This document shows positions 27,810 to 31,952 of a DNA stretch of 42,198 nucleotides, piece after piece. The DNA lies in NCBI GenBank assembly GCA_946546925.1, contig CAMNOS010000007.1, positions 1-42,198 of the forward strand, written 5' to 3'. The stretch comes from an uncultured Butyrivibrio sp. Its GTDB lineage: Bacteria; Bacillota; Clostridia; Lachnospirales; Lachnospiraceae. A model generated the notes under the pieces. It was not told where the DNA came from, searched no databases, and saw only the letters and a list, made by a program, of their open reading frames with translations. The position numbers were made by a program, and so were the translations under genes. Every line of letters begins with the position of its first letter. Position 1 is the stretch's first letter.

Positions 27810-27840
27810 AGCGCCTCGCTCTTGCTGCGAGGCGCTTTTT
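27810..27840 (+). terminator. Strong Rho-independent terminator
   Basis: AGCGCCTCGC (27810-27819) and GCGAGGCGCT (27827-27836) make a perfect 10-bp GC-rich stem with a 7-base loop, followed by a T run. Confidence 0.93.
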
Positions 27841-27860: not shown

Positions 27861-28934
27861 ATGAAGAAAGCTTTGATAGCCATGAGCGGCGGAGTTGACA
27901 GCTCTGTGGCTGCTTACATCATGAAAGAGAAGGGCTTTGAGTGCATGGGATGCACAATGAGGCTCTATGAAAACGACATGATTGGCGAGGACCTGTTCGG
28001 AAGCTGCTGTAGTCTTAATGACACGCAGGATGCCAGAGCTGTCTGTGATAAGATAGGGATTCCCTACAATATCTACCACTATGAGGCAGAGTTCAGGCAG
28101 AAGGTGATAGAGCCCTTTGTGTGCAGCTATGAGAAGGGGGAAACACCCAATCCCTGTATTAGGTGCAACCGCTACCTTAAGTTTGATCTTCTCTATGAGA
28201 AAGCCGTAGAACTGGGATACGAGAATATCGTGACCGGGCACTACGCAAGGATTGAAGAGAGAGACGGACACATGTATCTGTTAAAGGCTCTTGACCTGTC
28301 CAAGGATCAGAGCTATGTGCTGTACGACCTGACCGAAGAACAGCTCTCTCACACATTTTTCCCCCTGGGGGATATTCCGAAGACGAGAGTAAGGCAGATA
28401 GCCGACGAGAACGGTTTTGTCACGTCCCATAAGAAGGAGAGCCAGGACATCTGCTTTGTGCCTGACGGTGACTATGCCGGCATGATAAAAAGATACAGGA
28501 ACCATGATTATCCCAAGGGTGATTTTGTGGATCTTGATGGAAATGTCCTGGGAAGGCATGAGGGAATAATCAATTACACCATTGGTCAGAGGCGGGGACT
28601 TGGAATACCTGCAGACAGAAGGCTGTATGTCTTTAGAATTGATGCAGAGAATAACAGGGTGATCCTGGCTGATGATAAGGACCTTTTCAGCAGACAGGTC
28701 AAGGTCAGGGATTTTCACTGGATTACGGGAGGGGCACCCGCAGAAGAGTTCAGGTGCAGCGCCAAAATACGTTACAGGCACAGGGAACAGCCCGCTCTGG
28801 TTAAGATACTGGATGAGGGAAATGCAAGGATAGTATTTGATGAGCCTCAGAGAGCAGCGACCCCCGGACAGTCGGCAGTTCTTTATGATGGCGATATTGT
28901 CCTCGGCGGAGGAATTATTGTAGGAATGTGCTAA
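27861..28934 (+). CDS. mnmA: tRNA-specific 2-thiouridylase MnmA
   Basis: ATP-dependent thiolation of U34 in the anticodons of Lys, Glu and Gln tRNAs. 357 residues. PP-loop AMSGGVDSSVAAY at the N-terminus, GSCCSLNDTQDA, TPNPCIRCNRYLKF with the catalytic Cys, TGHYARI, ALDLSKDQSYVLY, and SQDICFVPDGDY with the second catalytic Cys. The C-terminal beta-barrel is present. GGAG at 27849-27852 serves the ATG. Confidence 0.97.
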   Translation: MKKALIAMSGGVDSSVAAYIMKEKGFECMGCTMRLYENDMIGEDLFGSCCSLNDTQDARAVCDKIGIPYNIYHYEAEFRQKVIEPFVCSYEKGETPNPCIRCNRYLKFDLLYEKAVELGYENIVTGHYARIEERDGHMYLLKALDLSKDQSYVLYDLTEEQLSHTFFPLGDIPKTRVRQIADENGFVTSHKKESQDICFVPDGDYAGMIKRYRNHDYPKGDFVDLDGNVLGRHEGIINYTIGQRRGLGIPADRRLYVFRIDAENNRVILADDKDLFSRQVKVRDFHWITGGAPAEEFRCSAKIRYRHREQPALVKILDEGNARIVFDEPQRAATPGQSAVLYDGDIVLGGGIIVGMC

Positions 28935-28985
28935 AAATTATAAAATATATCTATGGGAAATAGTAAAAATGTATTGGAGGAAAAT

Positions 28986-29291
28986 ATGCTTCAAATTTCT
29001 AAGGAACTGATCGGTGATCATCTTACAGTTTCTATTGCAGGACGCCTTGACATAAACACGGTGCCGGAACTTGAATCCCAGCTGGACTCGTCATTTGACG
29101 GAGTGAGCAAGCTTACATTTGATTTTTCGGATCTGGAATATATTTCATCCGCAGGGCTTAGAATAATTCTGTCCGCAAGGAAGAAAATGAAAAGTGATAA
29201 CGCTGTTGTGATAAAGGGAGCATCCAAGGAAGTAAGGGATATTTTTGAAGTGACAGGCTTCTCGAGCATCCTTGATGTCGGCTTGCTATGA
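28986..29291 (+). CDS. STAS-domain protein (anti-anti-sigma factor-like)
   Basis: 101 residues, a single STAS domain like SpoIIAA/RsbV. The pattern is typical: GRLDINTVPELESQL, LTFDFSDLEYISSAGLRIIL. Ser54/Ser55 in ISSAGLR is where RsbW-type kinases phosphorylate such proteins. The start is ATG 28986 because TTGGAGGAAAAT precedes it; the frame is open to 28953 without a site. The stop overlaps the ATG of the ABC lipoprotein/permease gene (ATGA). No anti-sigma kinase or sigma factor gene is adjacent, but the ABC ATPase two genes on carries an RsbW-like extension, which may be its partner (inference). Confidence 0.9.
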   Translation: MLQISKELIGDHLTVSIAGRLDINTVPELESQLDSSFDGVSKLTFDFSDLEYISSAGLRIILSARKKMKSDNAVVIKGASKEVRDIFEVTGFSSILDVGLL

Positions 29292-30868
29292 GGATCGGAA
29301 GCAAATTCTGCATCTTTTTGCGAAAGAGTACAGTGCCCATAATTTTTGCACTTATTCTTTCGCTTTCCGGGTGCGGTTCAAATGGCAGCAGATCGGAGTC
29401 ATCGGGAAGTGACGTTACCGTAAGAACCCCGGAGTATACTGAGTTTTCTGAATTAAAAGGCAAGACACTGTCCATGCTTACCGGAGCTCCTTTTGAGGAA
29501 CTGATCCTGTCTAAGGTTCCTGAGGTCAAGGAGTTTACTTATTATGCTTCAATGCCTGATATGACTCTTGCTGTTAAATCGGGCAAGACCGATGCGGCTC
29601 TGACCAACAACGCACTTTCAGAGCTGGCGGTAAACAGGGAGGAGTCTCTTGCTCTTTTCCCAACGCCTCTTAAGGAGGCTTCCTTCGGAATTGCCTTTTC
29701 CAAGGAAAACAAAGATCTTGCAAAGTGGCAGGCCGCCTATGATTCAATCTCACAGGAGACAAAAGATCTCCTGTGGAAGAAGTGGACAGGATCAGACGAG
29801 AGCAAAAAGGTGATGCCACAGCAGTCCTGGGAAGGCAAAAACGGAACGGTAAAAGTTGCTGCAGGTGACACTCTGGAACCGATGAGCTACGCCGGTGAGG
29901 GCGGCAGAATCTGCGGCTTTGACGCAGAGATGATTCTGCTCATGGCCAAAGAGCTGGATGTGCACGTGGAGTTTACCGGAATGGAATTTGCAGCTGTTCT
30001 TTCCTCAGTTCAGTCGGGAAAGGCAGATATGGCCTGCGGCTCCATAATCATCACAGATGAGAGAAGGCAGGCAGTTAATTTTGTTGAGTATTATCCCGCA
30101 GCATTTGTTCTCATAGTACGAGCGGCAGATGCAGAAGTCTCTTCCAAAGACTTCCTGACGAGTGTTGGGGAGAGTTTCGAGAAGACCTTTATCAGGGAAG
30201 AGCGCTGGAAACTATTTATATCGGGAATAGAAACGACACTTATTATTACAGTTCTTTCAGCTCTTTTTGGAACAATACTGGGATTTGGCGCCTTTATGGC
30301 CTGCAGAAACGGCAACAGGGCAGCAAATGTCATAACGCGGTTTGCCGTCTGGCTGGTGCAGGGCACGCCCATGATGGTCCTTCTTATGATCCTCTATTAC
30401 ATTATCTTTGACAAAGTGGACATAGACGGGGTGGGTGTTGCAATAGTCGGCTTCACTCTTGTTTTTGGTGCCGGAGTTTACGGAATGTTCAAAGTCGGCG
30501 TTGGTGCTGTGGACAAGGGACAGCTCGAGGGAGCTCTGGCTCTGGGCTATGGAAACGGCAAGGCCTTCCTCAATATCATCCTGCCGCAGGCAATTCCTCA
30601 CATCCTTCCGCTTTATCAGGGTGAGCTTACTGCTCTTTTAAAATCAACAGCCATAGTCGGATACATTGCAGTGCAGGATCTCACGCGAATGGGAGACCTC
30701 ATAAGGGCAAGGACATACGATGCATTTTTCCCGCTTATTGCGGTGGCTGCCATCTATTTCATTCTTGCTGCAGTGCTGATAGCTCTTTTCAAGAGACTCA
30801 CTTTTAAATTTGATTACACTAAGCGGAACAGAGAAACTATTATGAAGGGGATTTCCATGCATGATTGA
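29288..30868 (+). CDS. Amino-acid ABC transporter: lipoprotein solute-binding region fused to permease, with swapped binding halves
   Basis: 526 residues. A signal peptide with lipobox LSGC (Cys29) is followed by two solute-binding segments and a permease. Residues 54-168 (FSELKGKTLSM ... SFGIAFSKENKDLAKW ... LLWKKWTG) match the second half of a SBP_bac_3 protein. Residues 185-282 (NGTVKVAAGDTLEPMSY ... GFDAEMILLMAKEL ... SGKADMACGSIIITDERRQAVNF) match the first half. The order is thus inverted compared with a free binding protein. The permease (about 308-505, five hydrophobic segments) has the EAA loop QLEGALALGYGNGKAF and IILPQAIP of polar amino-acid transporters. It overlaps the STAS and ATPase genes at both ends. 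Confidence 0.9.
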   Translation: MRIGSKFCIFLRKSTVPIIFALILSLSGCGSNGSRSESSGSDVTVRTPEYTEFSELKGKTLSMLTGAPFEELILSKVPEVKEFTYYASMPDMTLAVKSGKTDAALTNNALSELAVNREESLALFPTPLKEASFGIAFSKENKDLAKWQAAYDSISQETKDLLWKKWTGSDESKKVMPQQSWEGKNGTVKVAAGDTLEPMSYAGEGGRICGFDAEMILLMAKELDVHVEFTGMEFAAVLSSVQSGKADMACGSIIITDERRQAVNFVEYYPAAFVLIVRAADAEVSSKDFLTSVGESFEKTFIREERWKLFISGIETTLIITVLSALFGTILGFGAFMACRNGNRAANVITRFAVWLVQGTPMMVLLMILYYIIFDKVDIDGVGVAIVGFTLVFGAGVYGMFKVGVGAVDKGQLEGALALGYGNGKAFLNIILPQAIPHILPLYQGELTALLKSTAIVGYIAVQDLTRMGDLIRARTYDAFFPLIAVAAIYFILAAVLIALFKRLTFKFDYTKRNRETIMKGISMHD

Positions 30869-31952
30869 GATTGTTTCCCTGAGAAAAGAATATGACAACA
30901 TAACGCCTCTTACCGATGTAAACGCAGTGATAAATGACGGCGATATCATATCTGTGATAGGTCCTTCCGGCATGGGTAAATCGACCTTTCTTCGCTGTAT
31001 CAACATGCTTGAAAAGCCAACCTCCGGAAAGATCATTGTAAACGGACAGGATATCACAGCGCCCGGCTGCAATCTACAGAAAATCAGGCAGAAGATGGGA
31101 ATGGTGTTTCAGTCCTTTAACCTCTTTTCGCACATGACTGTGATAGAGAACATAATGGCTCCCCAGACTGACCTGCTCCGAAGGACAAGGCAGGAGGCCT
31201 ACGACGAGGCAGTGCGGCTTCTTAAGCTTGTGGGATTGTCTGAAAAGGCCTTTAGCTATCCTGATGAGATGTCCGGCGGTCAGAAGCAGCGTGTGGCAAT
31301 AGCCAGGTGTCTTGCGATGGACCCCGACACAATCCTGTTCGACGAGCCTACAAGCGCGCTTGATCCCACGATGGTTGGTGAGGTGCAGGCAGTTATATCA
31401 GAGCTTGCCGGGACCGGTAAGACCATGATCATAGTGACCCACGAGATGGGTTTTGCACGTGCCATAGCAAATCGAGTTTTCTACATGGACGAGGGTGGCA
31501 TCTACGAGGAGGGCACCCCGGAAGAAATATTTGAAAGCCCCAGAAAAGAGAAGACCAGACAGTTCATACGCGGACTCAAGGTTCTGGAACTTACTGTCCG
31601 GGAACAGAGATTTGATTTTCTTGGAATGCAGACTGAGATCGAGAGCTACTGCAGGAAAAATCTCATTCCTTATCGCATGTCCAGGCATCTGCACCTTGCG
31701 TTTGAGGAACTGGTGCAGCAGATCTTAGTGCCCGGAATGGATAGACCTGATATCTTTTGCAGCATTGAATACTCTGAAAAAGATGAGAAGGTTCTCTTTA
31801 GTGTATCCTATGGCGGAGATGAGATAGATATGTCAGGAGAGGACAGCAGCCTTGCGTTATCAGTGTTAAAGAGCGCGGTGACTGATCTTGGGCATGAAGT
31901 ATCTGCAGAGGGCGCAAGGAAAAACCACGTATCAATGACAATACTTCCCTGA
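30861..31952 (+). CDS. Amino-acid ABC transporter ATPase (GlnQ-like) with a C-terminal RsbW-like domain
   Basis: 363 residues. Residues 1-240 are a complete ABC ATPase of the polar amino-acid type: Walker A GPSGMGKST (34-42), Q-loop Gln84, MSGGQKQR (137-144), ILFDEPTSALDP (158-169), switch His194. GlnQ-type proteins normally end near 240-245. Here about 120 residues follow. They look like a GHKL/HATPase_c_2 fold of the RsbW/SpoIIAB kind: HLHLAFEELVQQIL fits the N-box (consensus E-x-x-x-N, Asn replaced by Gln287), then VLFSVSYGGDEIDM and LALSVLKSAVTDLGHEV fit the later parts. Key Mg- and ATP-binding residues are lost, so kinase activity is doubtful. The start overlaps the permease gene by 8 bases. 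Confidence 0.88.
   Translation: MIEIVSLRKEYDNITPLTDVNAVINDGDIISVIGPSGMGKSTFLRCINMLEKPTSGKIIVNGQDITAPGCNLQKIRQKMGMVFQSFNLFSHMTVIENIMAPQTDLLRRTRQEAYDEAVRLLKLVGLSEKAFSYPDEMSGGQKQRVAIARCLAMDPDTILFDEPTSALDPTMVGEVQAVISELAGTGKTMIIVTHEMGFARAIANRVFYMDEGGIYEEGTPEEIFESPRKEKTRQFIRGLKVLELTVREQRFDFLGMQTEIESYCRKNLIPYRMSRHLHLAFEELVQQILVPGMDRPDIFCSIEYSEKDEKVLFSVSYGGDEIDMSGEDSSLALSVLKSAVTDLGHEVSAEGARKNHVSMTILP

Follow-up and report, generated by a model that had tools for sequence, protein, structure and literature searches.

Partner switching is known mainly for freeing sigma factors, and regulatory C-terminal tails on importer ATPases are known from MetN (NIL/ACT) and from the MalK/ModC type (TOBE). The locus described here, in which a STAS gene overlaps the genes of an amino-acid-type ATP-binding cassette (ABC) importer whose ATPase bears an RsbW-like tail, was analyzed within a window of 42,198 nucleotides from an uncultured rumen Butyrivibrio sp. 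(the whole stretch studied, positions 1 to 42,198 of contig CAMNOS010000007.1, assembly GCA_946546925.1). The source genome (G000) is a draft of 2.98 Mb in 260 contigs, of which the window is contig C7. The locus is composed of the following features, where SBP stands for substrate-binding protein:

28986..29291, + strand: lone STAS protein, 101 amino acids (Pfam PF01740 and TIGR00377; aligned to the STAS chains of solved complexes)
29288..30868, + strand: fusion of a lipoprotein-like SBP family 3 domain and an amino-acid-type ABC permease, 526 amino acids (Pfam SBP_bac_3, residues 188-297; BPD_transp_1, residues 331-505)
30861..31952, + strand: GlnQ-type ABC ATPase with a C-terminal tail, 363 amino acids (NCBIfam GlnQ, full-length model)
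31587..31949, + strand: predicted pseudo-RsbW tail, ATPase residues 243-363, with an RsbW/SpoIIAB fold lacking the ATP-site residues (AlphaFold, fold matches, hhalign)

Like MetN and the MalK/ModC-type proteins, this importer ATPase carries an extra C-terminal domain, whereas its tail model matches RsbW and the proposed partner is STAS. With RsbV-RsbW and SpoIIAA-SpoIIAB (6m36, 1th8) it shares a phospho-serine STAS protein, the predicted RsbW fold of the tail and, in six clusters of other genomes, a kinase and a phosphatase of the same type; unlike in those systems, the RsbW-type domain forms part of a transporter ATPase and lacks ATP-site residues, and no sigma factor was recognized by eye in the clusters examined here. 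In SulP/SLC26 carriers a STAS domain is also linked to a transporter, but the carrier-fused part is STAS there and its RsbW-type partner here. SypE-SypA and SiaB-SiaC likewise pair an RsbW-type domain with STAS (SypA) or another small partner, whereas SypE and SiaB are kinases and not transporter domains; SypA acts on biofilm formation by a mechanism given as not known (PMC10120452, PMC4517449). Finally, MlaF-MlaB also pairs a STAS gene with an ABC ATPase, with possible control of activity, but the MlaF extension is of about 25 residues (PMC7367683), compared with the 120-residue predicted RsbW-fold domain found here on an importer of another family. Among the open-licence papers listed by a literature search, none dealt with a transporter bearing the proposed receptor domain, which is weak evidence of absence. 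The reading favored here, by a modest measure over even, is that the tail would be a catalytically dead RsbW-type docking site for STAS, whose phosphorylation-controlled binding would alter the ABC ATPase activity.

The arrangement described in the earlier note, three overlapping genes comprising a lone STAS gene with the ISSAGLR motif and a GlnQ-like ATPase with a tail of roughly 120 residues, proved accurate. The sequence ATGA (29288-29291) contains both the STAS stop and the permease start, a 4-base overlap, while the end of the permease gene and the beginning of the ATPase gene share 8 bases (30861-30868). The STAS protein matched Pfam PF01740 (4.5e-16) and NCBIfam TIGR00377 (67.6 bits, cut-off 53.45), and the phospho-acceptor Ser55 in its ISSAGLR motif aligns with RsbV Ser56; on its sequence, scoring above the curated cut-off and having the phospho-acceptor serine, it is a member of the anti-anti-sigma family TIGR00377. 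The second protein, with an N-terminus that we read as lipoprotein-like, matched SBP_bac_3 (3.5e-22), BPD_transp_1 (9.8e-17) and, narrowly, the HEQRo-type permease model TIGR01726 (42.7 bits versus a cut-off of 42.2). ATPase residues 1-237 matched the GlnQ model (2.6e-80, 269 bits, the equivalog cut-off of 379 not being reached), and the nucleotide-binding domain (NBD) is 52% identical to 4yms_A, with a root-mean-square deviation of 0.9 (pLDDT of the full-length model, 91.1). Walker A and signature motifs, a HEQRo-type permease and SBP family 3 are all present, and by these sequence features the system is an amino-acid-type (GlnQ type) ABC importer.

The AlphaFold model of the tail (pLDDT 93.7) found its best fold matches among anti-sigma/serine-kinase chains, and hhalign gave 92.7% to RsbW kinases and 96.5% to HATPase_c_2 domains borne by MATE transporters. 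The window tail alone matched nothing in Pfam or NCBIfam, HATPase_c_2 was matched weakly by 20 of 68 homologous tails (best 5.9e-4), and a solved-structure search with the tail profile returned two chance matches. It is nonetheless near certain, on the predicted structure, that the tail has the RsbW/SpoIIAB fold. The resemblance claimed in the earlier note is thus strongly supported, and structure prediction, for which that note had considered NIL/ACT or TOBE as other outcomes, returned an RsbW-like fold; a different fold is unsupported, model and fold search both pointing to RsbW. NIL, ACT and TOBE were absent among the 25 listed of the 34 Pfam families matched by the 68 tails, which does not amount to exclusion. 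The N-box Asn position is occupied by Gln in 67 tails and by Asn in one, the G1-box Asp position by Tyr in 57 and by Asp in none, and the profile alignment shows a shortening of the glycine-rich ATP lid. Because these features of ATP binding are lost, the tail is not classed as an RsbW/SpoIIAB kinase: an active kinase is ruled out by the ATP-site residues, and the tail looks, from its sequence, like a pseudokinase with an eroded ATP site.

The neighborhoods of 109 distinct tailed ATPases were annotated with hidden Markov models and compared with those of untailed GlnQ-type controls, namely 42 ATPases scoring >230 bits in 40 author-chosen stretches (40 genomes, each contributing one untailed match), of which 35 remained after removal of near-duplicates; flanks averaged about 12 kb for tailed and untailed ATPases alike (1298 kb and 419 kb, respectively). 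A permease was fused (14) or lay just upstream (83) in 97 of the 109 cases, and the tailed-ATPase arrangement is therefore not due to chance. STAS genes were found within 10 kb of 13/109 tailed and 0/35 untailed ATPases (Fisher p 0.022), or 12/109 (p 0.03) without G070, whose STAS gene lies in a separate stretch; the counts were 5/109 versus 0/35 within 3 kb and 10/109 versus 0/35 within 6 kb. Any partner-switch gene occurred within 10 kb of 20/109 tailed versus 1/35 untailed ATPases (p 0.016), and in each of the 12 loci measured STAS shared the strand of the ATPase. A tree of 100 rows, of which 11 had STAS, 79 lacked it and 10 were uncounted, shows 8 changes of the STAS state, which do not separate gain from loss; the tree is a quick one and carried a long-branch warning. 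A Poisson estimate gave 1.1 STAS genes expected against 12 seen, indicative only, as the density was hand-summed from 30 genomes of one genus. STAS is thus unlikely to be a chance neighbor of tailed ATPases in general. The co-occurrence anticipated in the earlier note is real but uncommon, and its universal form is rejected.

The survey also bears on the idea that STAS binds the NBD itself, with the tail irrelevant. In its favor, MlaFB is a case of a STAS protein bound to an ABC ATPase (PMC7367683), and in the source genome a STAS gene overlaps the gene for a 217-amino-acid ABC ATPase without such a tail (L259:3838-4784, contig C12). Set against this, untailed GlnQ-type controls lacked STAS neighbors altogether, and MlaF has its short extension and no folded RsbW domain, so direct NBD binding is very improbable. 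The neighbors of the L259 pair look, to our reading, like a phage-baseplate or contractile cluster.

Association with phosphatases was evident at the genome level. Among 245 genomes of the order, 24 of which have a tail match, a SpoIIE match better than 1e-40 was present in 23/24 tail-bearing versus 45/221 other genomes (p 1e-13), and a rank test of SpoIIE counts over all 245 gave p 1.4e-11. The 24 include G188, a 152-residue frame that is probably a free RsbW and whose reassignment gives 22/23 versus 46/222. The excess held within family f11 (11/12 versus 13/30), family f1 (8/8 versus 14/37) and the other families (4/4 versus 18/154). Within the genus (79 genomes), the median SpoIIE count was 5 in the 19 tail-bearing genomes versus 2.5 in the other 60 (p 1e-4), and all 10 genomes with zero SpoIIE were tail-negative (p 0.05). 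G041, whose divergent tailed ATPase was missed by the profile, was counted as tail-negative, and G018, whose match is a 589-amino-acid frame, was placed in the same set. STAS itself is non-discriminating, being present in 29/30 genus genomes.

In the RsbV-RsbW crystal (PMC7340262), RsbW Arg23, Asp42, Lys44/Ser48, Glu49 and Tyr118 contact RsbV Asp23, Arg84/Arg87, Tyr53, Ser56 and Ile91, respectively. RsbW Glu49 aligns with tail Glu41, conserved in 68/68 tails, and among 12 aligned STAS proteins the RsbV residues Ser56, Tyr53 and Asp23 correspond to Ser55 (12/12), Tyr52 (12/12) and Asp22 (11/12). RsbW Asp42 aligns with tail position 34, which is Arg or His in 62/68, and the facing RsbV Arg87 position is an acid in 12/12 aligned STAS proteins, giving a reversed charge pair. 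Docking of STAS on the tail, which the earlier note proposed together with gating of amino-acid uptake, is probable.

Several observations weigh against docking at the tail. The acid at the Arg87 position also occurs in 23/23 other STAS proteins of these genomes; the charge reversal is therefore not specific to tail-linked STAS, fits docking by any of them and is too general to serve as proof of specific docking. The tail position aligned, without a gap, to RsbW Arg23 holds a small or neutral residue in at least 60/68 tails. In GHKL kinases the conserved Glu serves as the base as well, and it may for that reason be kept for structure. STAS is present in tail-negative genomes too (11/12), and shared ancestry remains in all genome-level tests. 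No STAS gene was found in the examined flank of 96/109 tailed ATPases, many flanks being short, nor in the 12 kb examined around the ATPase of the closest relative (G009, 75% identical); in view of that relative, STAS may at the window alone be a chance neighbor. These neighborhoods without STAS, together with the vanished ATP site and the dimers of RsbW that occur in the RsbV-RsbW complex (PMC7340262), would also suit a tail that is a structural or dimerization domain, or that binds another ligand, STAS binding having been lost and the neighboring STAS acting on the genome's RsbW. Such an account is unlikely, given the enrichment of STAS near tails relative to the controls, the shared strand in 12/12, the recurrence across the tree and the genome-level phosphatase association.

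Complete clusters, with STAS, SpoIIE phosphatase, RsbW kinase and tailed ATPase, were found in six genomes (L075/L054, L110, L115, L116, L143 and L188), at two places on the tree (L115, too short, was left out of it). The first four of these, which share one family code, have the order STAS, SpoIIE-HATPase_c_2, SDF symporter and fused SBP-permease-ATPase-tail (about 900 residues); in the examined stretch of L115 the last of these does not form a single open frame. The SpoIIE-HATPase_c_2 protein of L075, the sole one tested, carries a 5TMR_LYT sensor. L143 contains STAS, a MATE transporter with C-terminal HATPase_c_2, a SpoIIE phosphatase, a free RsbW and a tailed ATPase, the last two 2.7 kb apart, and L188 a tailed ATPase, a phosphatase, a STAS-APH-RsbW fusion, STAS and MATE-HATPase_c_2. 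L154 and L156 combine tailed ATPase, phosphatase and STAS, in L154 also with MATE-HATPase_c_2, and showed no free kinase in the stretch examined. No sigma factor was recognized by eye among the cluster genes, no systematic search having been made. The SDF symporters of L054:2021-3607, L110, L115 and L116 are extended at the N-terminus by an additional domain, about 125 amino acids long, which is weakly RsbW-like (hhalign 60.6% to tails, no Pfam match). STAS is fused to an APH-type phosphotransferase in L044 and L188 (by Pfam) and in L120 and L155 (by sequence), in L188 also with an RsbW-type domain.

In the window operon, STAS is the only partner-switch gene besides the tail, with no RsbW-type kinase or SpoIIE-type phosphatase. 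Elsewhere in the source genome, STAS genes lie on contigs C19, C91, C16, C24 and C12; that of C19 stands beside a free RsbW kinase, with no sigma factor recognized by eye within 12 kb. Eight SpoIIE matches were found, none of them in the window operon, and candidates to switch the window STAS therefore exist outside it. A second tailed ATPase, fused, is encoded on C94. The nine HATPase_c_2 matches of this genome comprise the C19 RsbW, three on transporters (C17, C83, C59), two on C1 and C10, and three that we read as histidine-kinase-like (L005, L006, L008). MATE transporters with C-terminal HATPase_c_2 were seen at L257:5057-6811 (C17), L268:5068-6825 (C83), L267 (C59), L143, L154, L188 and L176, identified by Pfam in five and by resemblance in L267 and L176; the N-box Asn is present in six of these seven domains, and the C17 MATE gene overlaps a SpoIIE gene. 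At L258, L260, L261 and L262, a conserved 400-amino-acid protein with two LxEE(V/T)-type helices is encoded just 5' of the STAS gene; it is possibly a doubled, degenerate RsbW-like protein, and the two tested had no Pfam match.

This genomic setting also accommodates a transporter that acts as a sensor, the tail holding or releasing STAS as the transport cycle dictates; the supply of amino acids would in this way feed a partner-switch network of the C19 kinase, eight SpoIIE proteins, several STAS proteins and MATE-borne RsbW domains. All anatomical evidence for tail-STAS binding fits this equally, as do the STAS-RsbW pair on C19 and the further STAS and SpoIIE genes. The L075 phosphatase, however, already has a sensor, and the extra domains on two transporters of its cluster have the look of an output, beside which none was identified for the network; a sensory role is accordingly rather doubtful.

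Upstream of STAS lies one further gene:

27861..28934, + strand: mnmA-like gene (our reading of the sequence; open reading frame list)

It is possibly co-transcribed with STAS, and a terminator scan found no terminator-like site between the two. Weak 5-pair matches occur at 28900-28913, inside the end of the mnmA-like gene, and at 30742, inside the permease gene; the strongest site on the + strand is at 27810, 5' of the mnmA-like gene, the scan having returned 11 sites versus 4.4 in shuffles. The sequence GGAGG (28976-28980) precedes the STAS ATG by 5 bases, and a longer STAS start, at 28953, was proposed by the open reading frame scanner. In the window permease protein and its relatives the SBP part seems to be permuted, lobe 2 coming ahead of lobe 1 and the permease last, with weak BLAST evidence: residues 45-185 matched lobe 2 of ordinary SBPs in 4 of 6 SBPs listed, the best at 0.002 and 0.003. 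The relatives have one to three SBP copies, and permease open reading frames cluster near 520 and 760 amino acids.

In the simplest account, the tail would be a STAS receptor that has lost catalysis and is supplied mainly in trans, at this locus in cis as well. Unphosphorylated STAS, encoded by the adjoining gene here and at other genomic sites in most relatives, would bind the tail; a true RsbW kinase (that of C19) would phosphorylate Ser55 and so release STAS from the tail, and SpoIIE-type phosphatases, a good number of which have sensor parts, would restore binding, which would thus be under phosphorylation control. Once bound, STAS would alter how active the ABC ATPase is, most likely by lifting an inhibition that the arrangement of the two tails would impose. 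The chances that transport is controlled in this manner appear evenly balanced, and the choice of relief over inhibition as the sign is hardly more than guesswork. In a broader and more tentative form, partner switching might act directly on membrane transport: in gut and rumen anaerobes, a class of transporters (amino-acid ABC importers, MATE exporters and possibly SDF symporters) would carry RsbW-type domains that a shared STAS pool would occupy according to phosphatase signals, resetting uptake and efflux without transcription. If this is true, nutrient flux could be under post-translational control by the same signals, and targets open to testing would become available for those STAS, SpoIIE and RsbW genes of rumen and gut anaerobes that have no accompanying sigma factor.
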